Shown here: piece by piece, positions 5,811 to 52,406 of the stretch
Numbering within the stretch: the stretch's first letter is position 1
How the letters are laid out: each line of letters starts with the position of its first letter
NCBI GenBank assembly: GCA_011316305.1
Contig: SAUG01000123.1
Location: 1 to 64,000, forward strand
Source: Rusavskia elegans
Taxonomy: Eukaryota > Ascomycota > Lecanoromycetes > Teloschistales > Teloschistaceae
Length of the DNA stretch: 64,000 nucleotides
Direction: 5' to 3'
Notes under the pieces: generated by a model
What the model was told of the DNA's origin: nothing
Databases searched by the model: none
What the model saw: the letters and a program-made list of their open reading frames with translations, nothing else
Translations under genes and position numbers: made by a program

Positions 5811-6035
5811 TGGCATTTATAGTCGATACGGAGACGATTCCGGGATACGCGATAGAAAACGAATCTCTAAAGTTATATATACTTTCTATTATCGCTAGTA
5901 TCATCTATTTAGGTCTAGCGTTTATTTATTACGCGTACTATTTAGCTATTTATAGATTTTTTCTTTTCCTACTTCCTAGAATATATAATATATATCTATT
6001 TTTTATATAAATTTTTACTTTTATATTAAAGTTTA
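5811..6035 (+). repeat. Left LTR of the outer Copia element
   Basis: 225 bases aligned end to end with 20899-21123, starting TGGCATTTATAG and ending with the RIP form of GGAGCTCA. Differences from the right copy are almost all C/T or G/A. The first ~30 bases are less mutated than the right copy and the last ~70 are far more mutated. The small hydrophobic open frame here is LTR sequence, not a gene. Confidence 0.7.
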
Positions 6036-9000
6036 TAGTTATAAATTCGATATTATATATTAAAATACTATTACTATTAATTAATCGCTAGTATTAAATA
6101 CTATAACGTATAAAATTCTATTATAAAAATCTATTATACCGCCGCTATTTTTTACTACTAAAAAAATTCGCTATATATTATATAAAGTTTAATATATTCT
6201 AGTAAATAATAAAAGAATTTATAATTAATTAATTATTTTATATAAACTACCGGAAGTTTACAGCTATAATATAAAAACAGATTTTATTATTTAAAAAAAT
6301 CTTTTTTCCGATATATATATATTTTTTATACGTTATAAAAATTTAAAATAATTATAATTATCGTTAAACGTAATATTAAATTTATTTTAGTAAAGGACTA
6401 GAATTTATAGCTCGTAGCTATATAGAATAAAGCGACCGGCTAGCGCGTTTAGAAGTTTATCGATCTATCTATTATTCTAAAATCTAAAAATCTTTCGAAA
6501 TCTATTAAACTAATTTTATAATAAATATAAACCGGTACTATAAAAATAATAGCTAAAATAAAATTAAAATTTAAAAAAATAAAGCTAGATTATATTAATA
6601 AAAAAAAGACTATATATAAATAGCCGATATATTCGTTAAAATAAACGACTTTATCTAGAAAATAGTAACGAGTAATACTTTCGTCTTTATTAAATATAAA
6701 GAATTATATCTATAGAATTATTTTTATATATTTAAATTTAGGCTCGTTTTAATAGATTCTGTTAGATTAATAGAAATCGAATATTCGTATAAATTACTTT
6801 CGGCAGAACCTATTAAAAATTAGAATTTCGAAATATAATTTAATATCTATATTTCGATATATATTTATATTAAACAAGTCGGTATTATAGAAATTAAAGA
6901 ATATAAAAAAATATATAGAAACTTTATCTTCGCTATTATAATTCTAGTACTAATTTTTATTATAAATTATTTATTAAAATTCGATAATAAAATAGATTAC
7001 GAGATCGAATATTTTAAATTTATTAAAAGTTTCTATAATTATATTAGGCTAAATAATATTAAATGTATTATTACTAATTTAATATTCGCTACTATCGAAA
7101 GTAGTTCTAAATTGAAAAGAAATAGAAATCTATTATTTCGGAATAATAATAGTAAACTTTCGAAATATATCTATAATTACGAATATTAGTTCGGCGATTA
7201 TTATTATTTATATTATTATTTTAATTTTAAATATTTAAAAATATTAGCGAATTAGAAACTAAAAGATAATATAATAAAAAAAATACGCGAAGCTTTCGAT
7301 AATAATATTATATAGAAAATAAAGATTAAAAAGGCTATTAATTATTCTATCTAGTATAAAAAATATTCTAGTAAAAAGGAAAAAGAAATTTAAAATAAAA
7401 AAAAGATATAGATAGAAATTTATATCGTCGTTAGCGGAAGCGTCGTTTTCGAATTCTAAATATTTCTATAATATAATATATTCTATATAGTCTTTTAAAA
7501 AACCTTCGCTATCGATTCCTATTTATAAATATTATAGATATTCGATAGCGATTTAGTAATTAATATCTATAATAATTTAATAGTTTATCGTTTTATTTAG
7601 AGAAAACTATATTTTAAAAATATATATATCGTCTCCGGGAAAGACTATATATCTATTATAGCCTATAGCTAGAAATAATCGAAGTTAACGTTTCTATAGA
7701 TAAGAAATTTATTATAATAATAAATATATACTATATTTCGGAATTTATAATTAATTTAATTTTCGAAAGCTATTTAAAAAATAAATATAATCTCTATTAT
7801 AATAGAAAATATCGCTATATATAATAAAGAAATTAAACGGTCTTTAATTATATAAAAGTCGGCGGGTATTATTTATTTAAAGATAATCGAAATAGTAAAG
7901 ACGATATAGCGTCTATAATATTCGTAACTATATTTATTAATTCCGATACTATATATAAATAGTACTAGCTTCAAGTTTATACTACTAATAACTCTATTTA
8001 ATATCTTTTATAAATTACTAAAGAGATAAAAATTATTAATTTAACGAAGATATTTCCTATAAATAAATATAAAATCGACGTTATTTCTAAAATCTATTAG
8101 ATTGTTTCGCTTTTATTATATAAAAGAAAGGATTTCGATAAACTTTTTTTCCGTATTATATTCGATTTTATTCCTTTTATAATTATTTTAAATAAAAATA
8201 AATATATTTTATATATTATATATATTAAAACAGACTTCTATTTTATATTTTATTTATCGTTATAAATTAAAGGCTGTTCGAATAATTTATAAAGCGATTA
8301 AACTAATCGAAATTCGCTATAATAGTAAAATAATATTTCTAAAATCGAATAGAAAAAAAATCTTTCTAGAAAAAAAATTTAATAATTTTCTATTCTAGCT
8401 AGATATTTTTTAGAAACCTTTATTACTATTTATATCTAAATAAAACGGTTATTCGGAACGTCTAGACTATATTTTTATTATTAAAATATAAGTAATATAT
8501 AATATAGTTATATTTTTCTATTATTTTTAGCTATAGATCTACCGTATAGCTAGAATAATTATAAACTATATACTAAAGAAAAAGCTCGTCTAGAAAATTC
8601 TATTCGAGACCGTTATTAAATTTCGTTATTATTTAGATTATTTATATATATATAGCTATAAAGTCTATCCGTTTAATAAATATATTATATATATAGAAAA
8701 GCTTTTTCTAAAAGTTTATATTAGATTTCTAGTAGGATATAATAGTTCTAATATCTATAATATCTAGACTTCTAGCTAGCGGAAGATTATACGAAGCCGT
8801 AATATTATATTTAATAAAGATTCGTTTTACTTTTCGAAAAAGATTAATATAATTTAGTTTTAAACGAAGCTATTTCTCTATATTACGTTTAATATTCTCT
8901 ATATAGACCCGCCTATATATAATAAACTTTCTAAATTTAGCGATAGTAATAATAATAAAGATATCGTTATTTAAAAATCTATAGAGGCGTTAAATAATAT

Positions 9001-10969
9001 TAAAAAAAGAAGAAGAAATATTTATTTCTATTTTCTTTAAATCTTTTAATTTTAGAAAATAATAATAACTATTATCTAGATAATATATTCTAATATAATA
9101 ATATCCAAAGTATTTTCGAATAAATTTTTCTATTATAGAAAAAATCGAAGCCGTATAAAAAAGTTTAGAAAATAAATATTATTACTAATAATATATCTTA
9201 TATTTAAAAGAAATCGGAAAGAATTTAAATATATATAATATAACTAATATTAATAGATAATATACTATTAGTATTTTATATAGCTTTCGCAGTTTACCAG
9301 GCAGCTCGAGTATTATATAAAGATAATTCCCCGCTAGATCTACCGCTATACGAGTTAATTCCTATTAATATATACTATTATCGCGATTAACTTCTATCGG
9401 AACCTAAATACTAGAATAATATATTTAAATACCCGTTAAAAAAAAGTTTTATAAAAGCTATATAAATCGAAATTAAAATATTCTAGAATAAAAAAATCTA
9501 GAAAGAAATAGCCGGTAATAAAGTCTCTAAAATTAATAGTATTACTATTTCTACTATCTTAATTTTTAAATATAAATTTAATAACCAGAGATATTTTCTT
9601 AAATTTAAAGTTCGTCTATATATTAAAAGAGATTTTTAAAATACTAAAGTAAATATATACGCTGCTATACTAGCTATATATATTTTCCGAATCTTTATAG
9701 CTATTATTACCTATTTTAACTACGAGACTCGGCAGTATAATACTGTTAACGTTTTCGTTAATAGTAATATTAACGAACCTATCTATATTAAACCTCTATA
9801 GAATTAGAAAGGATCGAAAACAGTTTTACTATTATTTCTATAAACGCTATACGGGCTAAAATAATCTCTAGCGTTCTAGTTTCGCTATTTATTATCTATA
9901 TTAAATAATTTGGAATTTTAAACGGTTTTCGATACCGAATATCTTTTTATCTATAAATATATACTTTTATTCTTTTTCGTTAATAATATTACCGTTATCT
10001 TCGAAGCTAGAAATATTAAATATATAGAGAAATTCTAGACTAAACTATTTAAAAAATACAATATAAGATTTTTAGATACGATTATATAATTTCTAAATAT
10101 TCGAATAATACGCGAAAGAAAACTATATAAACTATTTCTATACTAAAATTTCTATATCGATAAAATTACAAAAAAGTATTATATTAATTTCTCTATAAAA
10201 AGTTTTAGAACTCCGCTAGTAAATATTAAGATTTTTATAAAAAAATACTAAATAAACTATACTATAGTAAATTCTCGTATACTAATAGCTCGTCGGTTTA
10301 ATATAATTCGCAGCTATTATAAACCGCGTTAATATCGGTTTTATCTTTTTTAGACTGGCCGTCGGGTCGGGTTTCGAATCTAAATTAACTAATCCGATCC
10401 GACCCGAGTCGGGTTATAGTTAAATCTAACCTGACCCGAATCGGATTAGATTTTTCTATAGTTCGACTCGATTTAAACCCGGATCGGAGTCGAGTACCCG
10501 GGTTCGACCTATTAAAATACTAAAATCGCGAATAAAGATATAATTCTAGTATTAAAATATAATTTATAAATCCTATTTTTTTCTAATATTATATTAAAGA
10601 CTTTAGATATTTCTAATATTAATATATACTATTTATTATTATCTATTAAATAATTAATACTATTTATATTATTATTTAATATCTATATATCTATATTAGT
10701 TTATTATATTACTATATATATCCGACTATATTAATTTTTTATAGATTATTAACTAGCTATTATCTATATTAAACGTGTTACTATTTAATAGAAAGACGTC
10801 TGGTTTATTAAAGAATTAATATAGAATCTGGAAATATAGCCCGAGACGTAATAATAGCTAGTTAATAATAAATTCTAAAAGATTAAAAACTCTAGAAAAG
10901 AGATATATATCTATAGAATTATTTAGAAAAGGATAATACTATTTATATAGTACCGATATATAAATTAAT

Positions 10970-11568
10970 ATATCAGCATTTTCTAAAACCGGCTTGAAAT
11001 CGGTTTCAGCTATTTTAGTCGTCTCAGCCGGTTTTTAGCCGGTATAGCTGAAAGCGGCTTATAAACGGTTTATTAGCCGGTTTCGGGTATACCCGAAGCT
11101 ACGTAGCTGCGCGGCTAAGACGGCTAAAACGGCTAAGCGGCTAAGACGGCTAAAACCGGCTAAAAAGATTTAGAGATTCGATTTTAAATTCGTTTAAATC
11201 CTTTTTAGTTAATAGGCCTATATACGCCTGTATATACCGCTAGACTAGCTTTATCTAGATTAAAAATTTTAGATTTTTTTACTAGAATCTAATTAGATTA
11301 GGTCTAGCGTGGTTTATTAAATAGATATTCGACTTCTATTATTCCCGCTTTTAGCGGCGGCCGTTAAATCTTATTTTCGAGTTAGGTTATATAGGTTTAT
11401 TTTTAGCTTATATATAGATTCTATTTTAAACTGTTTACTAAGTAGATATTCGTACTATAGATACTATTAGAGCTTTAATCTATCGAAAATCCATTTTTTA
11501 GATTATTTGAATTGAAATAGCTGTTAGCCGGTCTAATTTGAAAATCCATTTTAGAATTCGCTGATATA
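10970..11568 (+). mobile_element. ATATCAGC-type MITE, copy 1
   Basis: About 600 bases with ends ATATCAGCATTTTCTAAAA and TTTTAGAATTCGCTGATAT, an imperfect inverted pair. The inside carries runs of CGGCTAA/TTAGCCG units (10981-11155). Two further copies in the window lie at 37335-37972 (opposite orientation) and 49179-49813. No coding capacity. Confidence 0.75.
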
Positions 11569-11829
11569 TTTATAGATAACTATTATATAAACTAGTATTA
11601 AATAGAATATATTAATATTTTATATTATCTATAATTATTTTCGTATTTAACTATCGAATATAATTATAAGTCGGGTCGGATCGGATTTTTAAATCGAATT
11701 TTTAAATTAAAGTCTATAATCTAATCTAAAAGTCGGGTTAGAATCTATAATCCGATCTAATCGTTTAGCGGGTTAAATCCGGATCGGGTTACTAAAATCG
11801 GATCGGATATCCGACGATTCGACGGAAAC

Positions 11830-12060
11830 TATTATAGATCGATTTAAAATAATAATAATAGTTTGATGTTTCTATATAGGTGGAAAGTTCCTCTATAAAC
11901 AAGCGAACAAGGCTGAACGCTAGGCCTAATTAGATAACGAATCCCGTAGAACTAATAAACCGCGGTTAACGGGGCTTAGTCAGCGTATTAGTTAGCCGGC
12001 ACTATCGGCTAGTATCTCTATATCTACTAAACTTTATATAAGCTTAAATAGTTTATAATA
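11830..12060. repeat. Left LTR of the nested Gypsy element
   Basis: Aligned without length change to 19083-19313. The left half keeps G/C (for example GGTGGAAAG, CAAGCGAACAAGG) that is A/T in the right LTR; the right half shows the reverse. As the element is minus-strand, this is its 3' LTR. Confidence 0.75.
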
Positions 12061-12174
12061 AATATTATAAAACGAAAAAATAGTATCGCCTTTAATACGC
12101 TCGTATTGAATATTTAAAAACTTTAAAAACGTTAAAAATAAAGGCGCTAAAAGGTTAAAAAGAAAATAACGCTA

Positions 12175-12250
12175 CTAGAAATCGAACCCGAACTATACTA
12201 GAATCTCTAAATAATAAAAAGCGGCTAATAGAACAGCCAAGCTAATTTCT
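12175..12250 (-). other. Decayed tRNA-like segment
   Basis: On the minus strand there is a D-arm-like GGCT..AGCC hairpin, an anticodon-arm-like stem and a B-box-like GTTCGATTTC after GTTCGG. The acceptor ends do not pair, so this is a degraded tRNA or a tRNA-derived SINE fragment, not a working tRNA. Confidence 0.3.
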
Positions 12251-19082: not shown

Positions 19083-19313
19083 TATTATAGATTGATTTAA
19101 AATAATAATAATAGTTTAATATTTCTATATAAATAGAAAACTCCTCTATAAATAAATAAATAAAGCTGAACGCTAGACCTAATTAGATAACGAATCCCGC
19201 AGGATTAATAAGCCGCGGTTAACGGAATTTAGTCAGCGTATTAGTCAGCCGGCACTATCGGCCAGTGCTTCTATATCCACTGAATTCCATATAAATTCAA
19301 ATGGTTTATAATA
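19083..19313. repeat. Right LTR of the nested Gypsy element
   Basis: 231 bases paired with 11830-12060; the 5' LTR for the minus-strand element. Its right-hand ~70 bases keep ancestral C and G (GCCAGTGCTTC, CCACTGAATTCC) that have become T or A in the left copy. Confidence 0.75.
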
Positions 19314-20154: not shown

Positions 20155-20218
20155 TCGCTATAGCTCTAGTATTATAGATTTATATCTAATAAATCCCGGT
20201 TCGAATCCGAGTTCCGTT
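20155..20218 (+). other. tRNA-like A/B box segment (SINE-like)
   Basis: Contains an A-box-like TAGCTCTAGT near 20160 and a canonical B-box GGTTCGAATCC at 20198-20208 inside a nearly paired T-arm (CCCGG / CCGAG). The flanking acceptor sequences do not pair. It is best read as a RIP-altered tRNA-derived element lying between the Copia RNase H remnant and the hAT-like MITE. Confidence 0.35.
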
Positions 20219-20746: not shown

Positions 20747-20898
20747 TTTAAACTTTTTAATTTCGATTTTTACTATCTATAATACGGTTATTTCTATACT
20801 AATTTAAGAAAAGGATATACGCGGTAATACTATTAATAAAAGTTATATAGAATTAAAGTTTATCGGCGTTCGCTATCGATTCTAAAAAGGTATAAAAA

Positions 20899-21123
20899 TA
20901 GTATTTATAGTCGATACAGAAACGATTCCGGGATACGCGATAGAGAACGAATCTCTAAAGTTATATATACTTCCTATTATAGCTAGCGTTATCTATTTAG
21001 GCCTAGCGTTTACTTATTACGCGTACTATTTAGCTACTTATAGATTTCCTCTTTTCCTGCTTCCCAGAATATACAATATATACTTATTTTTCATGCAAAT
21101 TCTCACTCCTGCACTGGAGCTCA
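20899..21123 (+). repeat. Right LTR of the outer Copia element
   Basis: Partner of 5811-6035, of equal length. Its last ~70 bases are almost unmutated (for example CACTCCTGCACTGGAGCTCA), while the left LTR has T or A at the same places. An open frame runs through it into the flank and stops near 21198; this is probably chance. Confidence 0.7.
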
Positions 21124-21477
21124 TATTACTAAAAGCCAATATTTGGTACCTGGAAGCATTAAACTCTCTGCCTCATTGCTGTCTCGATGAAATTTAGGCG
21201 CTGTGTAGTGGCGTACCTCCAGCCTTCGCTGGCTGAGACTGAGACGCGAAGACATACAAAGTCCGAGATCAACCAAGGTTATATATAGGCCACCAAATAG
21301 GTCTGTACAACCATTCACCCCGTCCAGAGCCCTAGAGTTCGTAGGGCCTTTCAAAACCGTCGGCAGACAACCTCGGTATAACTGGCTGGGATTTCTTTCT
21401 CCTTGCCTGCTCTGCCCAACAATCGCATCTAGACAATAATAGCTAGCGCTACTGAATCCATTCTGGGGATTTGGAGC
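21124..21477. other. Intergenic, no supported gene
   Basis: GC-normal DNA directly right of the Copia LTR. Short frames only, and no motif recognised. Confidence 0.45.
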
Positions 21478-22809: not shown

Positions 22810-22826
22810 TCAATCTGTAAGAGGAC

Positions 22827-24888: not shown

Positions 24889-26248
24889 ATGAATCCCCAC
24901 CAGAAGAACAAGGTCGACGTTAACGTACATCAATTCTATCCCGAACGGAAACATTCAACAATTGACGTAATCTCTAGTCCATGAACGAAGAAGAGCAAAA
25001 GCTTTTCCGTCTCTACGGGAAACTACCCAACAAAAAGGACCTTCTCCAGAACAAGCTCAAGGTACGTTATCTCCCCAAACCGCTCCAGAGATCGCACCCA
25101 ACACCGCACCCAACACCGCACCCAACACCGCACCCAACACCGCACCCAACACCGCACCCAACACCGCACCCAACACAGCACCCAACACCGCACCCAACAC
25201 CGCACCCAACACCGCACCCAACACCGCACCCAACACCGCACCCAACACCGCACCCAACACCGCACCCAACACCGCACCCAACACCGCACCCAACACCGCA
25301 CCCAACACCGCACCCAACACCGCACCCAACACCGCACCCAACACCGCACCCAACACCGCACCCAACACCGCACCCAACACCGCACCCAACACCGCACCCA
25401 ACACCGCACCCAACACCGCACCCAACACCGCACCCAACACCGCACCCAACACCGCACCCAACACCGCACCCAACACCGCACCCAACACCGCACCCAACAC
25501 CGCACCCAACACCGCACCCAACACCGCACCCAACACCGCACCCAACACCGCACCCAACACCGCACCCAACACCGCACCCAACACCGCACCCAACACCGCA
25601 CCCAACACCGCACCCAACACCGCACCCAACACCGCACCCAACACCGCACCCAACACCGCACCCAACACCGCACCCAACACCGCACCCAACACCGCACCCA
25701 ACACCGCACCCAACACCGCACCCAACACCGCACCCAACACCGCACCCAACACCGCACCCAACACCGCACCCAACACCGCACCCAACACAGCACCCAACAC
25801 CGCACCCAACACCGCACCCAACACCGCACCCCTCCCCTCAATGCAATAAACTGACCCCCAGTCTCACTTCTCCGTTTCTCAGGAACGCAAATACTTCGAC
25901 TCGGGCGACTACGCCCTCTCCAAAGCCGGCAAAGCCTCCGAAGGCGGCGTCACCTCCATCGGCTCCCAGCACCCACTCCCAGAAAACATCCCCCACCTCA
26001 CCTCCCCCGTCCCAACCAACGGCCACAGCAACGGAAGCAACGGTCACTCGGGCTCCATGAGCCACTCCGGTTCAATGAGCGCAGGTTCGGCGATTCCGGG
26101 CGGGCAGGGTGGGAGTCCCGTCAAGGAAGCGAGTTTCTTGCATCGAGGAGAGAGTGTCGATGAGCAGGCAGTGGAGAGTCCTAAGGATGAGGGGGGCAGT
26201 AAGAGTCCGCTGGGGAATGAGAATGTGCCAGCGAGATGGCAGGGTTAA
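24889..26248 (+). CDS. igo1: Endosulfine family protein (Igo1/ARPP-19 type), PP2A-B55 inhibitor
   Basis: Three exons, 24889-24924, 24978-25061 and 25883-26248, give 161 residues. The start [12 protein letters not shown] and [18 protein letters not shown] are typical of fungal endosulfines. The key FDSGDY motif is at residues 45-50; in the family its serine is phosphorylated by Rim15/Greatwall, turning the protein into an inhibitor of PP2A-B55 at quiescence or mitotic entry. The tail is Ser/Gly-rich, low complexity ([21 protein letters not shown]). Intron 1 is 53 bases; intron 2 is 821 bases and is almost filled by a 12-base minisatellite. Intron 2 has no stop in the frame entering it, so retention would add a long HPTP repeat and then shift frame. 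Confidence 0.93.
25093..25832 (+). repeat. 12-base minisatellite inside endosulfine intron 2
   Basis: About 61 head-to-tail copies of CGCACCCAACAC spanning 740 bases. Only two units differ visibly (CAGCACCC instead of CCGCACCC, near 25175 and 25790). Because the unit is a multiple of three, several frames on both strands stay open (HPTP on one strand; LGAV and WVRC on the other); these are not genes. The array lies between a GTACGT donor at 25062 and a TTTCTCAG acceptor ending at 25882. Confidence 0.95.
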
Positions 26249-37015: not shown

Positions 37016-37334
37016 ATTCCTTGCTTACAAATATTAATGATTAAAAATACTTACGTATACCACAGAAAAAACAAGCTTTAATTGATTAGTATATGTAAAA
37101 CGTTGTATCTTCGGAGCGTAAAAATCTTTTATAATAATTTTAGATTCGCTATAATTTTAAATCTTTGCAGATATATATAGCTATTACTATTACGTTTTTT
37201 CGGAATTTTGAAAAATATAAACTATAAAGTTTATTAAAATTATTTATTGATTGTAAAGGAATAATTCTGCGATCGTATAAATCGATCAATATTTAAAAAA
37301 AAAATCTATTTACTATTTAAATTTTTAGCGCGCT
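37016..37334. other. AT-rich margin
   Basis: AT-rich, stop-dense DNA with no readable protein remnant, between normal DNA and the MITE at 37335. Confidence 0.4.
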
Positions 37335-37972
37335 ATATCAGCGAATCCTGAAATGGATTTTCAGATTAGACCGGCTGACAGCCAAATAATCCAAATAATC
37401 CAAATAATCCAAATAATCCAAATAATCTAAATAATCCAAATAATCCAAAAATCCAAAAATTGAATTTTCGATAGATTGGAGTTCTAATAGTATCTATAGT
37501 ACGAGTATCTGCTTAGTAAGCAGCCTAAAATAGAATCTATATATAAGCTAAAAATAAACCTATATAATTTAACTCGAAAATAAAGTTTAGCAGCCGCCGC
37601 TAAAAGCGAGAATAACGGAAGTCGAATATCTATTTAATAAACCACGCTAGACCTAATCTAGTTAGTTTCTAGAAATCTAATATTTTCGATCTAGACGAGT
37701 CTAGCCTAGCGCTATATATAGGCGTATATAGGCCTACTAACTACTAATAAAGACTTAAACGAGTTTAAAATCGAATTTCTAAATCTTTTTAGCCGTCTTA
37801 ACTACTTAGCCGTCTTAGCTGTCTTAGCTGCGCAGCTACGCAGCTTCGAGTATATCTAAAACCGGCTAATAAGCCGTTTATAAGCCGCTCTTAGCCGTAC
37901 CGGCTAAGAACTAGCTAAAACGGCTAAAACGGCTGAAACCGGCTTTAAACCGGTTTTAGAAAATGCTGATAT
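37335..37972 (-). mobile_element. ATATCAGC-type MITE, copy 2
   Basis: 638 bases, inverted relative to copies 1 and 3. Ends ATATCAGCGAATCC and GAAAATGCTGATAT. It carries the same CGGCTAA-rich segment (37785-37945). A private 9-base microsatellite (CCAAATAAT, about seven copies, 37382-37450) lies near its left end. Confidence 0.75.
37382..37450. repeat. CCAAATAAT microsatellite
   Basis: About seven tandem 9-base units within MITE copy 2. The related region of copy 3 has only two or three diverged units. Confidence 0.8.
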
Positions 37973-38526
37973 AGCGATACCGCTAAAATTATTCGAAAAA
38001 TTTATAAAATCTATATTTTACCGAGTTAATATATTTAGCAAATAGATTAAAATTTTAAAAAAATAGATTTTTAGAAAATATAAAATTTTAAAAAGATTGA
38101 ATGACGTAGTAGTAAAACTACGTGATCTGGCAGTCTAACGAATCCAGCGTTTTCGGAATTAACGGAATTAAATTCGACGGGTCGGAAATTCGAATCTTTT
38201 AAAAACTAATTAATATTTAAATTTTTTCTATCGATTAAAAAATCGATTTTATATATAGTTTTTATATAGAAAAACTATATAGTAAATCGTTTCGTAATCG
38301 TATAAATCGATCGAATTAAAGTTGAATTTTAAAGTTTAAATAGATCAAGGTTTCATTGAATTTTCGATAAAATACTTGAAATTTTAAATAATTACGTGAT
38401 TTGATCAATTAATATCTCTAGTATTAAATCGTAAACGACGAAAATTAAAATCCGAATTTTTAAAATTTAAAAAAAATTTACTATAGTAGATATATATATC
38501 CATAAATTTCTTGAATTGCTACGAGA
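37973..38526. other. AT-rich spacer before the Gypsy LTR
   Basis: RIP-like AT-rich DNA. Nothing coding can be read and no repeat partner was found in the window. Confidence 0.35.
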
Positions 38527-38975
38527 TATTATAAAACTATCTGGAAGTCTGGTATTTTCAAAAGTTAGTTAAATTTATTAGAATATCTATAAACGAAAGT
38601 ATAACGGGTAATTATTTAAATTTAATTAAAAATAAATCAATTTAATTACTAAAGCAGTATATAGCGATAACTAATAAATTAAATACGAGTTATAAAAGCG
38701 TCGAGTTCGGAATTTATATAAATAAATAAAATTCTTTACTATTTAGATTATTTATTAATCGTAATAACTAAAATAGCTTTATTTTAAAGTATTTATTTAC
38801 TAAAACTACTAAATTTAAACAATTTATAGTATTTATTTACTAAAACTATTAAAATATTCTTTAGTACTAATATCTTGCTATCCTATATATCTCTATCTAT
38901 AAAAATATAATAGAAAATCCTATATTATACTAAATACTACCCCGTTTTCTAAAGTACGCTATCTATATTTATAAT
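38527..38975. repeat. Left LTR of the second Gypsy element
   Basis: About 449 bases starting TATTATA, paired with 51919-52406. It has two copies of an internal ~50-base unit (GTATTTATTTACTAAAACTA), where the right LTR has three. Its left end keeps CTGGAAGTCTGG that is mutated in the right copy. The exact 3' limit is uncertain by about 10 bases. Confidence 0.65.
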
Positions 38976-41900
38976 ACTAGATTTTCTTTTTAGATTTTCG
39001 TTTTAAAAAATCTTCCGTTCTTCTTTTTTATAGATAAAAGGAAAAGATTATTAACTAAAAATCGTCGTAATAAAGTCCTATTATTAAATATCGGTATATT
39101 AGCTATACGTTTTTATCGGAACTATTTTTAGTCAGAAAAATTTTATCGCGTTAATAAAGATTTCGAAAAGTATATTAATTATATAGAATAAATTTATCTT
39201 TATAACTTTACTCTATTAAATACTACGCGTTAGCGTCGTTTTAAAAACAAATATAAAAAGTTAAAAAAGAAATTATATAAAATATATACGAAGTAATAAT
39301 ATCTATTTTATCAATTAGATTATATTTAAAAACAGCAGCGTATTATATTTAATAGTAAACTATAAAATATTAAAAAGTTAAAATAAAAAAAGGTTTCGGC
39401 GAATCTATTTTTATCTATTAATTTAAATTCTTTTATCGATATAATTTCCGAATAGATTATTCTATCTAATAATTTCGGCTAGTTAATAACTTTTTTAATT
39501 TTTTTAATGGAATTATTATAGGATTTTCTAGTAGTTTACTAAATATTTTTTAGATTTCTAAATATTTTCCGAAGTAGAGTAATCTTTTTATTTAATTAAA
39601 TAGTTCTAATCTTTTTACTATAGAATCTTTTCGATTATAAAAGTATTTTCTTCCTATATTTTAAAATTAAATATCTATTTTAATAGCGTTCCGGAATCGG
39701 CTGATTCTAAAAGAAATATATAAAATACCGGATATACTTTAATATCTTTCAATAGATCGAATTCGAAATTCTAAAATCTTTTAATTTTTTTAATTAAAAA
39801 TAGTCCGACTTTAATATAGTTAAATTTTTTACTTAAAGTCTTTATTTTTAGATTTTTTATAAAAAGATATATTTTATTTCCTTTCTTTAGTTAAAATACT
39901 ATTTTTCGCTTTTTATTTTAATAATTACCCGAGTATTTTTATATTTTTAGAATATTTCTATAGATTTTTTTCTTAATATCGACTTTTTAAATCGTTAATT
40001 CCGCTAATATATATAGTAGCGATTATTTAAATAAATTTATATTTTTTCTATTATCGGCGTAAAATGATATTTTTTTAATTATATTTAACTCTTTTATATT
40101 AAACGCTAATTATACTATTAGTAAAAACGAAATCTAATTATTTTAAATATCGTTAATATAGTATTTTAAATACTATTATAAAGTCTAGTTAGTACGTTCT
40201 ATCTATTTATCTATTATCGGATAAAAAGCTATTAATAATTTTAATTTAATACTAAATAAAAGAATAAAAGTTTTCTAATAGTTTAAAGTAAAAAATTTAT
40301 TTCTATTATTTATTAATACTTCTAATAATCCGTAGTATCGAAATAGTCGATCTAAAATAATAAATCTAAATTATTTTACTATAAAATCTTTTTATAATAA
40401 AATTATATAGATATATTTTATAAATCTATTTACTATATTAAATATTAAATCTTATTTTATATTTATTATCGAATTTTTCGATTTTAGAAACTTTATAATA
40501 AAGTCTAATATAATTTCTTTTTATAGTAAATCCGGTAGTTTCTAATATTGGATTTTTTTATAACGAGTATATATAATATACTTGTTTTACTAATAATTAA
40601 AATATTTTCTAATATATATTTCGACGTAATATTTTATATTAGAAAACTAGTAATATTATTATAAAATTTATATTATTTTTATTATATCTAGATATTTTTA
40701 TAATATTTTATTATAGTATTTTTTAATATATTTATCGATTTTATCGTCTAGTATTTATAGTTTTTTTTTTATAGAAAATTATTTTTAGTCGTTTCTAAAT
40801 ATATATAGCGTTATATTTATTTTATATTAATTTACTAATAGTAATCTATTTTTATTAATTTTAAAAATATTATTATTAAAAATCTTTTTTATTTTTATAT
40901 AATTACTTTTTCGATTTAAAATATCTATTTTTCTATTTTCTTTATCTAGTATATAGTATATTTTCAATTTATATTAACTAAAAAGTTTAGACTATTATAT
41001 TTATTTTTTATTAAATTATTTTATCGTTATAAAATATAAAAAGTTTTTATAATCTATAAAAATTATTAATTCTAATAATCTTTCGATATATACTTTCTGT
41101 TATTTTAGTATAGTTACTATAGCTAATAGTTCTTTATTATAAATATCGTAATTCTATTTTACTAGCGATAACTTTTTTAATATATATACTACCGGATATT
41201 ATTTACTATTATATTATTATAGAAAATATATATCTATAACTAGATATATTATATTATAAATCTATTTCTATTTATAATAATTTTTTTAGATTAAATATTT
41301 TAAATACTAGATCTTTTATATATTTTCTTTTAAAATTTTCGAATATTTATTATTCCTTTTTTTTCTAATACTATTTAACGGTATCTTTTATTAAAACTAT
41401 AAAAGTAAAAGTTTTTTTAAAATAGTTTTTTTATAAACTTCCGATTATAGTTTATAAATCCGAAGAAATTTTATATTTCTTTAATATTTATTAATATTGC
41501 CTATTTTATAATAGCTTTTAATTTACTAGAGTCGATATATAATCTATTATATCTAATAATAAATTCTAGAAAATTAACTTTTTTTTATAAAATTTATACT
41601 TTTTAATTTAAAGTATAAATCTTTTTTTTCTCTAAATATTTAGAAACTTTACTAATATATTATTTATATTTTTTAAATATTTTAGAAAAAACTAAAATAT
41701 TATCGAAATAGATAATAAAAAATATATCTAGATATTTTTTAAATATATTTTTAATTATATTTTAATAGATTATTAGAATATTTATAAATCCGAATAATAT
41801 AATTATATATTTATAATAACTATATTATATTCGGAAAACTATTTTTTATTTTTTTCCGGTTTTTATCTATATAAATTATATATCCTTCGAAGGTTAAATT

Positions 41901-43196
41901 TTATAAAATATTATATTCTAGAGAATCTATTTTAAAGTTTTTTAATATTTAGTAGTAAATATCGATTTTTAATTATAATATCGTTTAGCTTTCTATAATC
42001 GATATATAGACGAAATATTCCGTTCTTTTTAGATATAAAAAAGATCGGATATTCTATCGATAATTAAATTTTTTTAATAAATCCTTTTTTTATATTTTCG
42101 TCTAGATATTTATAAAGTATTTTAAATTCTATCGCGGAAAATAGATAGATAGATCTAAATATAGATTATTTATTCAATTTAAATCTAATTTTATAATTTT
42201 ATAATTGATATTTAAATAATATATTTATAATTACCTTTTTTCGAAATAAATTTATCTAATTTTTATATTTACCTAAAATTCTTTCTAATAAATTTTTTAT
42301 TAATTTTTTATTAAATAATATAGAGTTTTTAAAAGATTTGTAATTTTCTTTTCTACTTCTATTTTATTAATCTAACTAACCTCCGCCGGTATCTAATAAA
42401 TCGGACCTAAATAGTTTTTAGTTATCTTTTTTCGAAGCTATAAATTCGCGCTTTATATTCTATTTTTTATCTATTCGAAATTTCTATTTTAATATAGACT
42501 AGATATTTTCTATATAGAAATATTATTTAAAACTAAATACTTTTTATCTCTAATCTATTACTAGATTATAATCTTTTAATTTAGAAATTCTAAATATAAT
42601 TTCGTAGCTAGCTATCCGAATAATATTAAACTAAAGTTTTTTCTAGTATTAGTTAATTATTATTTAAAGCGGTATTATTTTTTCTATAATCTTTTTATTT
42701 CTATTTAATATTTTATTTCTATCGATAACTATTAAATTATATAGATTCTTTTTTTTAATTTAAAAGAATTCTTTTCTTTTAGTTAAATTCTCTAATATGA
42801 AATTTCCGGTTATATTTAAATTAATAAATATTTTAACTTTCTATAATCTATTATTAGTTTTAATAATTATTTTTAATCTCGAATATATATATATATAAAT
42901 AGCTAAATTTAGTTATTTTTTCCGAACTATATAGTTATACGTTTATAGTATATCCGTTATTATAAAATTTTAGCTTTTTTCGAATTATTTTTTATATTTT
43001 CGTATTTTTTATTTTTATAATTTACTTATAAAATATATCTATAGAATTTTTAATTAAAGATTCTATTTCTTTTCTACTATTCTTTCTATCATTTATATCT
43101 ACTATATATAGTATATCCGGAATTGTTATAAATATTATAACTTCCGATTTTAATAGATATTATAGAGATATATTAGTATAGCTTTATATTACGTTC

Positions 43197-43595
43197 ACGA
43201 CTCCACAGAGGTTCTTTGGAAAATTAGTTAGACAAGCGAGCCTAATTATCTATAGCCGCCTATAGCCGCTATAGCCGCCCTTTCTAATAGAACTTTTAGT
43301 AGACGGTTATCTATCGGCTTTTATAGCTACTTTTACTATATATATCGTTTATTACTCTTATAGATGGTTTCTTTTATTAGTTATTAATATAATTATTAAA
43401 TATATCTCAATTATTCTCTTTTTAATTACTTTATAACGAAGATACCTTATAATATTATAACTATATCTCTATAGCTATAAAAAATTAATTATAATAATCT
43501 ATACTAGGATTTCTTTACTATTTAGTAGTTCGAACTACGTCTACGGCTATAGCTAGGCTCGAGTATAACGTCCTTTAATATATAGAAATATTATA
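43197..43595. repeat. Left LTR of the gag-only element
   Basis: 399 bases. The first ~110 bases keep C and G (ACGTTCACGACTCCACAGAGG) where the partner at 46114 has T and A; the last ~70 bases show the reverse. Confidence 0.8.
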
Positions 43596-46113
43596 TTTTA
43601 ATAATTTACTATATTAGTTTCGTTATCCCGACCTATAAATCGAAGCGATACTATTAAAGTAGTAATACTAAATATCTATAAAGGAGATAAAGAATCTTTA
43701 AAACTATAGATTATTTAGATAAATATCTATTTTATATTATATATAAACCAGTTTCCGAATAAAACGGTTAAGGTTCTATTTATAATATTATATCTAGAAA
43801 AGGCTGCCTTTAATTAGGTATAGCCTTAAATAGAAGATTACCTCGATAACCTAGAAAGATAAAAAGAAGATAAAATATTATAGATTTTCTACGCCTTTAG
43901 TAATCTTATTATAGCTATAAAAAAAGCCTTCGGAAATAATAATAAAGATAGAGTAATAGATAGAAGACTAATAGTTCTAAAGTAATAGAAATCGGTCGCT
44001 ATCTACGTTATTTAGTTTAGAATATTAGTTTATAAAATAGACTAAGAAGATTTAGCTCTAAAAGCCTATTTTTATAAAGAATTCTAGATAAAAGTTAAGA
44101 AAGCTATAGTAGCGATTAAAGAACCAGATTCGTTAGTAGATCTTATTAAATTTATAATAAAGATTAATACTAGATAGTATAAAATATATTTAGATAAACA
44201 GGCGTTTAGTAAAATAGGATCTATTAAAAGAAAGTCTAGAGAAAATCCGATAGAATTTAATACTACTAAAATTAAAAGATTATAAACTAAAGATTATTAT
44301 TTATATAGAAAAATAGAATATCTTAAAAAGAATTACCTAAATAAAGAAATAACTAAAGTAATTAAATACTTTTTTAAAATAATAGAAGAAGTACCTAATA
44401 AATATATAGTAAAAAGCTAGTTAGCCTACTATAATAACTATTACCCTATCTACCTATTAGATAGAAAAGAAACTAGATAGTACTTTAAAAAACTAAAGAA
44501 AATATAGGAAATAAAATTAATATTCGATTTTAAATTATATAAAACCGAAAAACCTCTTATAGTAGTATTTAAAATTAAAATCGGAAATTAATAAATAATA
44601 GCTTTTATAAATAGAGAGAAAGATAATAAAGTTACTAAAGGATTTTATAATAAAATTAAAGGATATCTCTATAGAAAAATAATAAAAAATAATAGAATCT
44701 TTAATATCGAAATTAAAATAAAGTACGGATTAATTAGATTAATAAATTTTACTATAATTAAAAGTTAGAAAAGTTATATTATTTTAGAAAACGAATAAAA
44801 AAAATCGATTTTAAAAAAACTAATAGAAAAAAGTACCGTCGGTAAGAAAATAGAACTATAAATAATATATCTTCTAGGCTATAAAAACCTTTTATATAAA
44901 GAAATAGACGAAGTTTTAATAGCGAACTATAAAAATATTAAAGACTTAGATACTAATTTAAAGAAGGCGGAAAAGTTTAGAAAATAAAAATCTAGAAGAA
45001 ATACTACTATCTTTTTTAATAATTTACTAAAAAATATAATAAAAGTAGAAAAATAATATAATAACTTTAGATAAACTCTATTAGAAAAATATACTAGAGT
45101 ATAGTTAAAGCTATAGATAAAATTAAATATTATAAACTGAACTAAATAGATTAGAATAAAGTAATACCGGACCTAGTATTTAGTATCTAATCTAAAAATA
45201 AAAAATTCGATTAGTATCTATCTTTATCGTTATAGGACGAAATAGTTACTAAAGAATAAAATTTAGTAAAACTATTAGAAAAACCAGAAATAATTTATAA
45301 TATAAATATATAATCCGGATTATATAAAAATAGTAGTAAAAAAACTCTTTATTAGACTTTTTTTAGAATTCTATAATTTCTATAGGTTAAAAAAAGTTAA
45401 AATCTTTTAAAAATTAATCTAGATTATCCGAACTAAATTTAGATATTAATTTAATAGACGCCTTCTACGCAGCTAGCGTAAAATTAATAGAAAAGTAAAA
45501 TATAACCGGATTATTAAATTTATTAAGTCTAGAAAGTATATATTATTTCTAAATAATAAAATTACTTTTATATTTATCTAAAATACGATAATAAATAATA
45601 AAACGCTTTTATTTATTAAAGAGTCGGCGGAAATCCGATTTCTAGGCTAAATATTTATTACGAATTTCCTTTTTAGAATTAAAAAAAGATTTAATATAAT
45701 AGCGAGCCTCGGAATATTTATTAAAAATACCCGCGATATTAAAATAAAATTTATTTTTTTTATTTTTAAAACGCTTCCCTACAGGGATTAGTAGAAATAA
45801 CGAACTAAAAAGATAATATATAGGTAGTATTAAATATTAGAAAATCGTACGATTACTAAATATAAATATATTTACTATAAATTTTATTACTAATTTTAAT
45901 CTTATATTTTTTTAAAAGATTATAGATATATAAAAAATAAGGAAAAGATATTATAATTCTTTTTAATTAAATATAACGAAATAACTTTAGCCGATTTCCT
46001 CTTCGAAAATATATAATAGAGGTATTAATAAAAAATAAAAAAAAAATAAAAAGATTTTTTTATATTCTATAGATAGATTATACGCTAGATAAAAAGCAAT
46101 ATAAAAAGTGCTA

Positions 46114-46522
46114 TATTATATCTATAACTTTATAGAAGTTCTTTAAAAAATTAGTTAAATAAACGAGCCTAATTATCTATAGCCGTCTATAGCTACTATA
46201 GCCGTCCCTCCTAATAGGACTTTTAGTAGACGACTACCTATCGGCCTTTACGGCTACTTTTACTATATATATTACTTATTACTTCTATAGATAGTTTCTT
46301 TTATTAGTTATTAATATAAATATTAGATATATTTCTACTATTCTCTTTTTAATTACTTTATAATAAAGATATTTTATAATATTATAACCGTACCTCTACG
46401 GCTATATAGAATTAGTTATAATAATCTATACTAGGATTCCTTTACTATTTAGTAGTTCGGACTACGTCTACGGCTGTAGCTAGGCTCGAGCGTAACGTCC
46501 TCTGATATATAGGAATGTTACA
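46114..46522. repeat. Right LTR of the gag-only element
   Basis: 409 bases, partner of 43197-43595, with its right end preserved (CGTCCTCTGATATATAGG, then GTTACA). Confidence 0.8.
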
Positions 46523-47244
46523 CTTTAATAAATACTATCCGGGTTCTTTTTTTTCTAATTTATAAATCCTATAATTATTATTATAGCAGGCTATCTAACT
46601 AAATAGCGCGTATAAATCTTCTATTATTATATTTCTTTATTATAATATCGATTTAGAAAGAATTTTATTTTTAGAAGTATTATTTCCGAGTTTTATTTCT
46701 AATATATCGATAATATTATTTATTTTTTAATTCTACTAACTATTTTATAGATATTCGTCGTTAATATATATTTTATAAACTTTTTTATATCTTTTATAGA
46801 TTATTATAAATCTTTTCTTTACTAGTTTTTTATTATAAAAAGCTTAAAAATATATTAGTTTAACGTCTTCTATTATTATAATTTTTTATCTAGAGGCGGC
46901 TTTTTTCCTAGTAGATTTTATTAATATTTACAACGAAGCGCTATTTATTATAGCTTTTTATAATAATTTATCGTTTTTTATAAATATAAATTCTTTATCT
47001 AAACTAATTTTCTAGAATTTAAAACTACTATTATTATCTTTTAAGACTATTTTTTACTAGTTTTTAGGTTTCTTTAACGTAGTATTAAATTATCGTCGTT
47101 ATATTTTATTTAATCGATATTCTTTTATAAAATAACTTGGTTTACTATAGTTATAATACGTTTTAGAATTTTTATTCCTTTTACTATTTCTAGAATTTTT
47201 CTTTTTATATCGCTATTATATAAAATCTAATTCTATTAGTATTA

Positions 47245-50200
47245 GAAAAAGCTTCCGTATATATCCCCACGTCGCTAATATATATTCTGCGTATCGCTAA
47301 TATATATCTTTTCTAATCGGGTTAAATCCCGGCGGTAATTAATCTAATAAAGTAAAATATAGAATCCGATAACTCTATCTCTTTATAATTTTTATTAAAA
47401 ACTCTTTTTCTTTAACTATCTCCTATATATTTATACTATATACTAATTATCTAAACGTTAAAGTTAAAACTTTTAAATATTTTAGCTATATATTTATACT
47501 ATTAGACCTAAAAGAATCCAGTATACGCGATAAAGATTAGAAAAGTAATACCTTTTTAATATTATTTACTTCAATTCTAGAAAACGTTTTTACTATTAAA
47601 AATCGTTTAAAAAGGCCTATAGATAGAGCTAAATCTATAAAAACTCCGTATTTAATTCTATAATATATAACCTTCTTCTAATATCTGTCTATTTAAAATA
47701 TTTATCTGCTTTTTAATTAATATAGTTATTTTATATTTAAATTATTAAATTAAGCATTCGTTAATTCTATATAATATTATCTAATTAATAAACGAAAGCG
47801 TAATTATATAATATATTTTAAAGGCGGAATATATATATTATCGTTTTACTAGCTACTTTTTTATTCTTAGAAGTTTTATTCTACCTCTTTTACTATTATC
47901 TCTACCTCGGCTTTTTAGAAACTAGCTTTAAGGTACCGGGAAGCAGATATATTAATAGCGTAGAAATCTAAAAAATCTAACTATTTCTAAATATATTTAG
48001 GCCTTTTAGATAATTATCCTTCTAGATACGAGGGTTAATATTACTATATTTATTATTTTCCTCGTTTTTTTTATTATTATTCCTATCTAATATCGTTTAT
48101 ATACGCCTAGAAATCTTAAAAATATAGATATAACTATTCGAGATATTATTTATAGTAAATTAGAACTAGAATTTTATCTACGTAGTCTTCTACTATATAT
48201 ATTAATCTATATAGCGTTAAATATATTTAAATAATAAAGGATCTCGGCGTATACTATTTTTATAGATCTAGAATCGTTTTACTTTTTTATTTTACTTTTT
48301 TAAAGCTGTTTTCGCTTTAGTACTATCTTTTAGTTTTCTTTTACTTTATAATTTAGGAGAATCGAAAGTCTGAAAGATAGGATCGATAGAATCGGAATCT
48401 ACTATTTTATTATCTTTTTTATTAAATATTAAGGTTATAAAAGGTTCTATTTTATAGAGAAATAATCTCGTCTCTATATTAATAGTTAGCGCCTTAATAT
48501 TCGGAAAAATCGTACGAATAAAATTTTGCTCGTTTAATATTTAATTAAAAGAGCGTCGACAGAAATAGAGATCGTAGTACTAATATTAGTAAATATCTTT
48601 AATATATAGAATTCCGAGTCCTCCGAAAATTAAATTTATATAGTTTTAAATTTTTTAATAATAAAGTAATTCTATTATCCGATAGAAAACTCCTATATAT
48701 AGTTTAAAAATCTTTTTTTTACCGAAATCTTTAACTATTTAGTTTTATTTTAGGATATAGAATCGTACCTTATCTCTCGTTTTATAGTTAAAATTATAAA
48801 AGAGATTCGGATTAAAATCGAAAGGAATTATATTTTTTATAGCCGAGATTTAGCATTTTTTAGCCTTTATTTTATCTTTAATAAAAGCTTTAATTTTATT
48901 AATTACTATTAAAATATCGCCGGTCGAAAGCTCTAGATAATATTTAAGCGCGGCGTAACTTCTTTTAATATAATTTATTAAATAGTTACCGAAATATACT
49001 ACTTTATTTAAAAAATATCTAATAAATTTCTCTTTATAATATAACTACGTATCTTCGATATAGGCTAGTATATTAGGCAAAGTACTATATCTCTTTTTTA
49101 TCGTCTACTAATTCCGCTGGTATTCTATTCGAAATATTAAATAGATAACCTTCTACTATATCTGTTTAAAGGTTTTCTATATCAGCATTTTCTAAAACCG
49201 ACTTAAAGCCGGTTTTAGCCGTCTTAGCCGTCTTAGCCAGTTCTTAGCCGGTATAGCTAAAAGCGGCTTATAAGCGGCTTATTAGCCGATCTCGGGTATA
49301 CTCGAAGCTACGTGGCTGCGCGGCTAAGACGGCTAAGACGGCTAAGACGGCTAAGACGGCTAAGCGGCTGAAACGGCTGAAAAGATTTAGAGATTCGATT
49401 TTAAACTCGTTTAAGTCTTTATTAGTAGTTAGTAAGCCTATATTCGCCTATATATAACGCTAGGCTAGCTTCGTCTAGATCGAAAATTTTAGGTTTCTTT
49501 ATTAGAATCTAACTAAATTAGGTCTAGCGTGGTTTATTAAATAGATATTCGACTTCCGTTATTCCCGCTTTTAGCGGCGGCCGCTAAACCTTATTTTCGA
49601 GTTAGATTATATAGGCATATTTTTAGCTTATATATAGATTCTATTTTAGGCTGTTTACTAAGTAGATATTTATACTATAGATATTATTAGAGCTCCAATC
49701 TATCGAAAATTTACTTTTTGGATTTTTGAATTATTTGGATTAATTAGATTATTTAGATTGAGATGGCTGTCAGCCGGTCTAATCTGAAAATCCATTTTAG
49801 AATCCGCTGATATAATCTTTTTTATAAAGAAGGACCTCGCTTCTAGTATCTATAATATTTTTATTAATATACTATTCGTATATTAGATATTTAGTATTAA
49901 AAAACTTAAATTTAATAGTATTTTCTAAAGTTGGATCGGCGTCGGTAATAATAACTTTAGAATTAGAAAAATCGTAGAATTAATAGAATATTTTAATTTA
50001 TATAAAAGATTATATATAATTACTTTCTATTTTATATAGAATAAATATAAAGCCGACGATAAATAATAAATCTATTACGGTAACGCTTTAGATTATTCGT
50101 AGAAAAAGACGGTATCGGTTAGTCTTATATATATAATCTATAGAAAGAATTTCCGGATTCTTTTTAAATAATTCTATCGAAACTTTATATATAAAAAATA

Positions 50201-51128
50201 AATAATTTAATTAGCCGAACTTATTTTTATAGTAGTCTATTTTCTAGTTATTATAATTCTATAGCTTTTTTAGAATATAATAGTTAGTATAAAACTTTAG
50301 AGAATTTATTATCGGATTTTATATTTAATATTACTGATATTCTTCCTTTTTATAAAAGATTCCTCGCCTTTCTCCTCGGCGTTTTTACGTAGGAAGCTAA
50401 GAATTTTATTAGAGATAACGTATTATTTAGTTATCTATAGAATAATCTTTATAATTTCGAAATTATTATCTTCGATTTCTGCGCGGCGGTAAACCGTAAA
50501 GCTATTAGTATCTATCGTTTTATAATTATAAGATTCTATATATAAATTAGCTATATTTTTACTAAAGATACTAGAAAACCTCGTCGTTTTTCTATATAAA
50601 CTTCTATATTTCTAAACTTTTTTTATAAACTATATAGCTATTAAATAGATACTAGTACCGCTAAATTTCTATATAACGCGGCTTTTTACTTTTTTTATAT
50701 TACCGAATAGATCCTACTTTAATATAGACGAGGTAGGCTTTATAGATAAACGCGTCGCGATCTTTTTTAAAAATTCTAGTATAACTAATTATATAGCCTT
50801 CGTTTTTTACGAATTTATTAATAATATTAAATATTTCGACGGTAGTATCGTATATAATATCAATCGGTAGAGGCCGGAGTATTATAACTAGATATACTAT
50901 AATAGCGTTACTAAAATAGCAGGTAGTATTAATAGTAGAAATAACAGAGATTAAATATTAAAAAAAATCCCGGATCGGATTATTTAATAGTAGAAAGATT
51001 AGAATTATATTTTATATTAACTTTATTAGGCTAGTTGCCACCGGGATTTAATTCGATTAGAAAGAATATATATTAGCGATACGCAGGATATATATTAGCA
51101 ACGTAGAAATATATACGGAAATCTTTTC
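47245..51128. mobile_element. Long-TIR DNA transposon inside the Gypsy gag
   Basis: Inverted arms of about 110 bases at 47245-47353 and 51020-51128 begin GAAAA..TTCCGTATATAT and include two GCTAATATATA direct repeats and a shared TTAAATCCCGG. Flanks carry TAGTATTA on both sides (47237-47244, 51129-51136), an 8-base duplication, or 9 bases with one C/T change. Long arms fit Mutator-like elements; the 8-base duplication would also fit hAT. With the MITE at 49179 removed, about 3.25 kb remains, enough for a transposase, but no catalytic motif can be read through the RIP damage. Confidence 0.65.
49179..49813 (+). mobile_element. ATATCAGC-type MITE, copy 3
   Basis: 635 bases in the same orientation as copy 1. 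Ends ATATCAGCATTTTCTAAAA and TTTTAGAATCCGCTGATAT. A run of CGGCTAAGA units lies at 49321-49375. It is inserted in the long-TIR element. Confidence 0.75.
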
Positions 51129-51918
51129 TAGTATTAATCCGAAATAACTATCTCCGGACTATTTTTTATTTAGATACTATCTTCTATAGAGCTATTCCGA
51201 ATAATATTTTATATTATTTTATAGTCTTTTATTATAGTATTCTTTTATATCCCGTTTATATAGTTTATTATCGAAATCGATAGATGATTTAATTAGATTA
51301 TCTAGTATATAATATATTCGACTATTATTTATTTTTTAAATCTTCGTCTAAATATTATATATAGAATGTTATTATTTTATTCTATTAATAGTATCTATTT
51401 TTTCAATTATACGGCGTAGTTAGATACTATATTTTTCTACTAAAAATATTAAATAAAATATTTAATAATATAAATTTCGTTAAAGATTCTAAAGATTTTA
51501 TAAATAGCTTTTTTAAATTTTATAAACTATACGAAGATATATTTATTATCTTTATCGTCGTTTATATATTATCGAAAAATAGATTTTATCTAATATTAAG
51601 CTCGTCTTCGAAAGTAGAATATAGTAAAAAGTATTTTTTTTTTTTCGAATATAGAATAGAATACGAAGTATATATCTAATTATATAAACTAATCTTTTAA
51701 TTTATTATAATTTCTATAATATTTATTAGATATATTAATTTTAATATTATAAAAACGTTAGGTAATAGTAGTAGAAATACTAACCTCTTTATTACTACTA
51801 TCGTCTTTTATCTAGATTTCTTTTTCTTTAGATTCGGACTTTTTAATTATATTACTAGAATTATTTAAAATAAAAATTTAATATTAACCTGCGATAGATA
51901 TTTTAAAAATATTTAAAA

Positions 51919-52406
51919 TATTATAGAGCTATCTAAAGGTCTGATATTTCTAAAAATTAGTTAAATTTACTAGTATATCTATAAATAGAAATATAACGGA
52001 TAATTATTTAAATTTAATTAAAAATAAATTAGTTTAATTACTAAAGTAGTATATAGCGATAACTAGTAAATTAAATACAAGCTATAAAGGCGTCGAGTTC
52101 GGAATCTATATAGATAAATAAAATCTTTTATTATTTAGATTATTTATTAATTAAAATACCTAAAATAGCTCTCTTTTAGGATATTTATTTACTAAAACTA
52201 CTAAAATTAAAGTATTTATAGTATTAATTTATTAAAACTACTAAATTTAAAGTATTTATAGTATTTATTTACTAAAACTATTAAAATATTTCTTAGTACT
52301 AATATCTAGCTATCCTATATATTTCTATCTATCGAAACGTAATAGAAAATCTTATATTATACTGAACACTACCGCGTTTTCTAAAATACGCCACCTGTGC
52401 TTATTA
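51919..52406. repeat. Right LTR of the second Gypsy element
   Basis: About 488 bases, partner of 38527-38975, longer by one internal ~50-base unit. Its right end (CGCCACCTGTGCTTAT) is unmutated, while the left LTR has TATCTATATTTAT there. Confidence 0.65.

Follow-up and report, generated by a model that had tools for sequence, protein, structure and literature searches.

In Neurospora crassa, repeat-induced point mutation (RIP) was described by Gladyshev and Kleckner as confined to the shared homology, with few mutations outside it, and one weakly homologous construct was mutation-poor in its first ~130 bp (PMC4858203). Repeats undergoing RIP in this species are typically above ~400 bp, with cases down to 150 bp observed (PMC10787394). 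For Podospora crapaud, RIP was reported on the long terminal repeats (LTRs) of full copies, and most solo or fragment copies carried little RIP, which was linked to their small size (PMC10787394); in the lichen fungus Cladonia rangiformis two DNA transposon families of ~730 bp showed much less RIP (PMC12542154). RIP has been resolved by position along repeats, as we do here, with RIPCAL in Stagonospora nodorum (PMC2621366). Here we analyse LTR retrotransposons of Rusavskia elegans in and beyond a window of 64,000 bp (contig C29, positions 1–64000; assembly of 44.16 Mb in 217 contigs), in which gene-like DNA of 46–56% GC alternates with AT blocks of 13–28% GC that show the strong depletion of CpA and TpG that is the signature of RIP. 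We find that the outermost 50–200 bases of the transposon copies examined are largely spared by RIP, and that the two LTRs of an element diverge from each other as mirror images.

The window holds four LTR pairs, one each of families A to D, whose ends we fixed from related copies and from target-site duplications (TSDs). Differences between C and T or G and A were polarised on the assumption of a C to T direction, and the ratios below give sites mutated in the right LTR only to sites mutated in the left LTR only (right-only:left-only).

5795–6037, + strand: family A left LTR; TSD TTACT at 5790–5794; left end spared, 9:0 in the first 60 bp
20883–21125, + strand: family A right LTR; TSD TTACT at 21126–21130; right end spared, 1:16 in the last 60 bp
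11830–12060, + strand: family B left LTR, of an element nested in A; TSD GAAAC; 7:1 in the first 60 bp
19083–19313, + strand: family B right LTR; TSD GGAAC; 4:9 in the last 60 bp
38527–38976, + strand: family C left LTR; no TSD, the weakest case; 5:5 in the first 60 bp
51919–52404, + strand: family C right LTR, 4 bp short at its right end; 2:7 in the last 60 bp
43187–43595, + strand: family D left LTR, of an element of 3.34 kb inserted in C; TSD CTTTA at 43182–43186; 14:1 in the first 60 bp
46114–46522, + strand: family D right LTR; TSD CTTTA at 46523–46527; 0:8 in the last 60 bp

The initial annotation had placed the left edge of family A at 5811; the true edge is at 5795, flanked on both sides of the element by TTACT, and the family starts with TGAAGACC, 16 bp to the left of 5811. 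In the right LTR of family A the first ~16 bp align ambiguously with a polypurine-like stretch. The first 16 bp of this family were omitted from the dose models, from the ranking-restricted counts and from the left–left, right–right and left–right controls described below, and were retained in the pair counts, the cross-over fit, the flank counts and the inside/outside profile.

To score the contrast between LTRs we used a position statistic that is positive when the sites mutated in the left LTR lie further to the right than those mutated in the right LTR, with 2000 permutations per pair. With the corrected bounds it gave p=0.0005 for A, p=0.0015 for B, p=0.034 for C and p=0.0005 for D. The lean claimed at the outset for all four pairs thus stands by permutation, except that the left end of the C pair is a tie at 60 bp (9:6 in the first fifth under provisional bounds) and is by itself unconvincing, and this pair leans only weakly overall. 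A cross-over within 30–110 bases, claimed for three of the pairs, proved to be single-pair noise: when pairs were pooled by family, a logistic fit placed the cross-over near mid-LTR (at a fraction of LTR length of 0.45 for A, 0.52 for B, 0.42 for C and 0.51 for D), about where both LTRs are equally far from the outer edge.

We extended the comparison to the assembly. Each genome search comprised the 40 best-scored places, and the copies used are accordingly the better matches to the window LTRs, a subset. Candidate pairs were read by eye off the match listings, and we took 14 of 16 for A, 20 of 26 for B and 9 of 11 for C; of the 39 places listed for D beyond the window we took 20, of which 17 loci yielded 19 pairs and three (L015, L019 and L033) yielded none. 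Together with the four window pairs this gave 66 pairs (A 15, B 21, C 10, D 20), 57 of them verified by a TSD (A 12, B 18, C 8, D 19); the other nine (A 3, B 3, C 2, D 1), in which no clean TSD was present, were set aside.

The position statistic was positive in 66 of 66 pairs of the four families, so that the sign change along paired LTRs, seen initially in four, recurs in the same direction throughout. Among the TSD-verified pairs all 57 were positive, 53 of them at p<0.05; the left end was spared in the left LTR in 56 (one tie, none reversed) and the right end was spared in the right LTR in 57. Summed over these pairs, the first 60 bp held 452 right-only and 70 left-only mutated sites, and the last 60 bp 123 and 624, respectively. 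The nine pairs without a clean TSD were all positive too, with L090/L091 weak (p=0.26). One further supposed D pair, at L023 (7241–7652 and 635–1064, minus strand), had no TSD, a left end of 8:7 and a reversed right end of 12:2; it looks like two left-type LTRs and stands outside the 66.

Since paired LTRs start identical yet end with opposite outcomes, these results support the view that position, not sequence, decides the level of mutation along the LTR. The initial annotation had held that position relative to the outer edge must set the mutation rate; the 57 of 57 verified pairs bear this out, while the word "must" was too strong, as rival explanations remain. When one strength was fitted for all families, absolute position with exponential decay was ahead of relative position by 6 log units (1429.6 versus 1436.0), whereas with family-specific strengths the two were only 2 log units apart (1373.4 versus 1375.3), which does not settle the choice.

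The argument requires that the LTRs of a pair began identical, as had been assumed from the start. Indeed, transversions, which RIP does not make, were concordant within pairs in 356 of 369 cells (26 columns with three or more occurrences of the rarer state, private changes being uncounted), so the LTRs were identical at insertion. The exception is a 40-bp tandem unit of family C. The contrast also did not depend on which left LTR was set against which right LTR: left–right comparisons between different elements were positive in 132 of 132 cases for A, 305 of 305 for B (one tie left out), 51 of 55 for C (one tie) and 342 of 342 for D, or 830 of 834 altogether. Left–left comparisons, in contrast, were positive in 36/64 (A), 57/141 (B), 12/25 (C) and 62/159 (D), that is, in 39–56%, and right–right comparisons in 32/64, 66/142, 13/28 and 108/157, or 46–69% (ties left out in both). 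The right–right comparison of D, at 69%, is the least balanced of these, and no like-with-like comparison has a lean comparable to that of left with right. An artefact of sampling, of misaligned ends or of LTRs that differed at the start is thereby made extremely improbable. The ranking of copies by their likeness to the window LTRs might still transfer the pattern of the window to the sample, and we therefore counted, in families A, B and D, only columns where the left-LTR ranking opposes the claim. The effect stayed: mutated in the inner copy against mutated in the outer copy, the counts at the left and then the right end were 39:6 and 36:2 for A, 46:6 and 42:20 for B, and 35:9 and 95:28 for D. 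In the few columns opposed by both rankings they were 5:0 for A (left end only) and 6:2 and 15:10 for B.

The mutations bear the marks of RIP, a process of the premeiotic sexual stage. Transitions dominate (2690 polarised transitions in the 57 pairs), with other differences, transversions and gap positions together, at 0–20 per pair, 6–53 in C, and 41 in one A pair. In the fit, the mutability of CpA was 11 times that of CpT, and the CpA+TpG share (the fraction of CpA+TpG+TpA) in the interior of D is 0.00–0.06. Mutation is also confined to repeats, the share falling from 0.62–0.76 outside to ~0.05 inside at 19 edges of family A. The elements themselves have the features of LTR elements: a 5-bp TSD equal up to transitions flanks 57 of the 66 pairs (41 of these identical; of 100 C/G positions in the TSDs that are intact in one or both copies, 19 are discordant), the LTR ends read TG or TA ... 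CA or TA, which fits a mutated TG...CA, and the internal parts are heavily mutated. The mutating enzymes would be RID/DIM-2. The assembly contains one DIM-2-like gene (locus L009), with a methylase match and a BAH match just below its cut-off, whose protein has 84% identity to a Calogaya cf. arnoldii protein and 84% identity, over 81% of its length, to a Xanthoria mediterranea protein, in keeping with a lichen fungus of the Teloschistaceae. Three further DNA-methylase loci (L010, L011 and L012) may include RID. Three additional loci would be unusual if all were RID-like; the matched stretches of L010 and L011 hold stops, which introns could account for.

To describe how mutation changes with distance from the edge we fitted dose models to 6643 sites at which one or both LTRs keep an intact C or G. 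A model with an edge ramp had a negative log-likelihood of 5256, compared with 5738 for a model without an edge effect; the best linear ramp was 222 bp wide (203–240 in 40 bootstraps over pairs), with a dose at the edge of 0.145 of the plateau, and an exponential decay of dose was 19 log units worse. Family D alone gave a best ramp of 190–220 bp. The contrast was sharpest at the preferred sites: right-only:left-only counts in the first and last 40 bp were 137:2 and 4:217 at CpA and 61:1 and 5:114 at CpG, with a far blunter split at CpT (67:26 and 61:89) and CpC (31:17 and 22:49). The dose of RIP thus climbs over roughly 150–220 bp inward of the border, and family C hints at more.

At 19 edges of family A with GC-rich flanks, the CpA+TpG share was 0.62–0.76 outside, where the baseline of the gene-rich part of the window is 0.74–0.76, and in successive 30-bp steps inside it was 0.80, 0.41, 0.26, 0.095 and then 0.04–0.08. 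Mutation therefore mainly ends short of the border rather than leaking across it. In 17 copies of family D (3.29–3.35 kb) the outermost 50 bp had shares of 0.35 and 0.22 at the two ends and all bins further in 0.00–0.06, while the flanks were mutated right up to the border (0.03–0.19). The host sequence beside the D copies showed no sparing, as expected for hosts already saturated, and for that reason this result is no test of whether the border of homology matters.

Could heterochromatin nucleated within the element, and fading towards open chromatin, set the level of mutation? In the outer 80 bp, mutations in the inner copy only outnumbered those in the outer copy only by 333:16 at the 21 edges with flank GC above 42%, by 131:24 at 10 edges of intermediate GC and by 843:200 at the edges with flank GC below 33%; the stronger sparing beside GC-rich DNA is what such a chromatin edge would give. 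However, the AT-rich class makes up 83 of the 114 edges, including those of D inside C, and still shows sparing, and the already mutated flanks of the D copies give way to higher shares within the element. This sustains the earlier remark that sparing holds for nested elements: it is seen for D inside C and with AT-rich, mutated flanks generally, and it occurs in AT-rich as well as in unique surroundings. Because the sparing persists in AT-rich surroundings that are already mutated, a heterochromatin edge is not needed, and we consider this explanation unlikely. The effect of flank GC is, moreover, largely confounded with family, as 19 of the 21 GC-rich edges belong to A; within A, flank GC correlates with sparing (Spearman 0.60, p=0.002), and within B, C and D there is no correlation. 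Family A lies mostly beside GC-rich DNA (19 of 24 edges above 42% GC), and B, C and D mostly beside AT-rich DNA (80 of 90 edges below 33%).

The transcript of an LTR retrotransposon omits the U3 of the left LTR and the U5 of the right LTR. If RIP struck the transcribed part, for instance through guidance by RNA or RNA–DNA hybrids, the untranscribed U3 and U5 would escape and the same left/right mirror image would be predicted. In D, however, almost no CpA survives on the left beyond the outer 50 bp (share 0.007–0.025 at 50–200 bp), where U3 is expected; the left and right ramps of this family do not differ significantly (229 versus 174 bp, p=0.17), nor do those of C, though those of B and A do; and each of the four families crosses over near mid-LTR. 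Escape of the untranscribed parts is thus, in our judgement, most unlikely, and a short repeat without LTRs that retains CpA towards both ends also speaks against it. This repeat, of 641 bp and resembling a miniature inverted-repeat transposable element (MITE), has the ends TATATCAGC...GCTGATATA and an internal minisatellite of the CGGCTAAGA type; in the assembly it has 40 main places listed of 238 candidates, and three copies lie in the window.

49178–49814, + strand: MITE-like repeat, 637-bp copy; CpA/TpG retained towards both ends, middle mostly depleted
37334–37974, − strand: MITE-like repeat, second copy
10969–11568, + strand: MITE-like repeat, third copy, inside element A

In 17 copies of the MITE-like repeat, the density of residual CpA/TpG columns (per 100 bp) was 12.5 in the 80 bp next to an end, 7.5 at 80–160 bp and 2.0 beyond, in a repeat that has no matched partner and whose original composition is uncontrolled. 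This suggests that the sparing of ends extends to a repeat, an uncontrolled case, to which neither retroelement transcription nor LTR–LTR pairing is applicable, since it has no LTRs. LTR–LTR pairing has itself been a candidate: an element's own two LTRs could pair in cis, with the stretch in between mutated by a DIM-2-type pathway and the inner sides of the LTRs affected worse. Mutation of single-copy DNA between close repeats has been described for Neurospora (PMC4858203, PMC12543289), and the DIM-2-like gene is present in the assembly. But the MITE-like repeat, although lacking a matched control, keeps CpA towards both ends without any LTR pair, and the interior of D is mutated evenly throughout, which leaves cis pairing very unlikely. 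All three, transcription, chromatin and LTR–LTR pairing, fit worse than the reading we favour.

That reading, which we hold to be probable, is that whole dispersed copies pair with one another and so direct RIP, which is weaker near the end of the shared homology. RIP would act on blocks of DNA paired with homologous copies elsewhere in the genome, and its dose would drop towards the border of the shared block, so that the last 150–220 bp become progressively less mutated; in insertions into unique DNA the last ~30 bp would remain nearly unmutated, with little or no spill outside. In the left LTR the left end would lie at the border and the right end deep in the block, and in the right LTR the reverse would hold, giving mirror-image divergence. 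Pairing of dispersed elements would do most of the work, because pairing of an element's own LTRs has borders at both ends of each LTR and predicts no left–right contrast. We infer that it is the end of homology, not the end of the element, that counts. Pairing may proceed by tracts about 200 bp long, fewer of which would cover a base close to the border, a picture from which a ramp follows naturally; that the gradient reflects the physical unit of homology recognition, with a dose proportional to the number of covering ~200-bp paired tracts, is a more tentative proposal that we regard as possible and somewhat doubtful.

Several observations weigh against pairing of dispersed copies as the full account. 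The end of the element coincides with the end of homology in every element examined, all being full rather than truncated copies. The share outside family A, at ~0.70, is slightly below the baseline of 0.74–0.76, and a small leak is possible. The stronger sparing beside GC-rich unique flanks than beside AT-rich ones suggests that surroundings or age also matter. The width of the ramp is unsettled: C alone favours at least 350 bp, the short LTRs of A and B set no bound on it, and fits with a ramp, a step or a sigmoid are within 2 log units of one another. The ramp differs between left and right in B (p=0.0006), in A (p=0.02) and in the pooled families (p=0.003). At left-end columns of B in which both window LTRs are intact, the lean is absent (7:8), as transfer of the window pattern by sampling would also have it, and in the MITE-like repeat, besides the lack of a control, the left side is uneven (0.14, 0.32 and 0.23 at 80–200 bp). 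Finally, in the S. nodorum repeat X0, the RIPCAL report notes a slight rise of detected RIP towards the alignment ends (PMC2621366). This need not conflict with end sparing, as detected differences may peak at unsaturated sites.

Compared with the described systems, the end effect in N. crassa duplications appears, in the part of that report concerned, as a remark on one construct (PMC4858203), whereas in R. elegans it is found in four families, in matched pairs, with a measured length and in wild insertions. In length the ramp is comparable to the shortest repeats reported as mutated in N. crassa. The C. rangiformis study used windows of 200 bp to 1 kb, and the section concerned contains neither end sparing nor a comparison of LTRs (PMC12542154). 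No left–right LTR asymmetry is mentioned in the relevant passages on Podospora crapaud (PMC10787394); the R. elegans elements have one. Searches of an open-access library turned up no account of RIP causing the LTRs of an element to diverge as mirror images, and earlier reports in subscription papers are possible.

Some further features of these repeats were noted. A self-comparison of 35 loci longer than 3 kb revealed no LTR family beyond A–D among direct repeats of 130–900 bp; two direct repeats, in L020 and L030, match no LTR. Two D elements have a second D nested inside (L017, 1913–8613; L028, 2504–9129), and two left-LTR matches of family B lie on the same strand of contig C17, 744 bp apart (37764–38112 and 38508–38851). 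In the window pair of family C, the right LTR has an extra 40-bp tandem unit (52193–52232, versus 38800/38801 in the left LTR). The unit is found in the right LTR only in 4 of the 8 TSD-verified C pairs (L095–L102), and the reverse never occurs; this bias is possibly a sampling effect, because left and right C copies were ranked against different window LTRs. The GC-rich part of the window also contains a tandem array with a 60-bp unit (25074–25831), whose shifted copies are 93–99% identical.

Identical LTRs, distinguished by nothing but their distance from the border, are a matched natural control from which the length over which RIP recognises homology, without recombination, can be estimated using genome sequence alone, across fungi and without crosses. 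In such fungi the divergence of LTRs is a poor clock, the mutation load varies along the element, and the ends of elements are better preserved even in otherwise ruined copies. The ramp alone would make short repeats partial escapers. Should the reading in terms of pairing tracts be true, LTR pairs in any RIP-active genome would provide an inbuilt measure of the pairing tract; a repeat of less than about two tract lengths would never receive the full dose, which would explain the escape of short elements; and integrases and transposases could still read the termini of elements, dead copies included.

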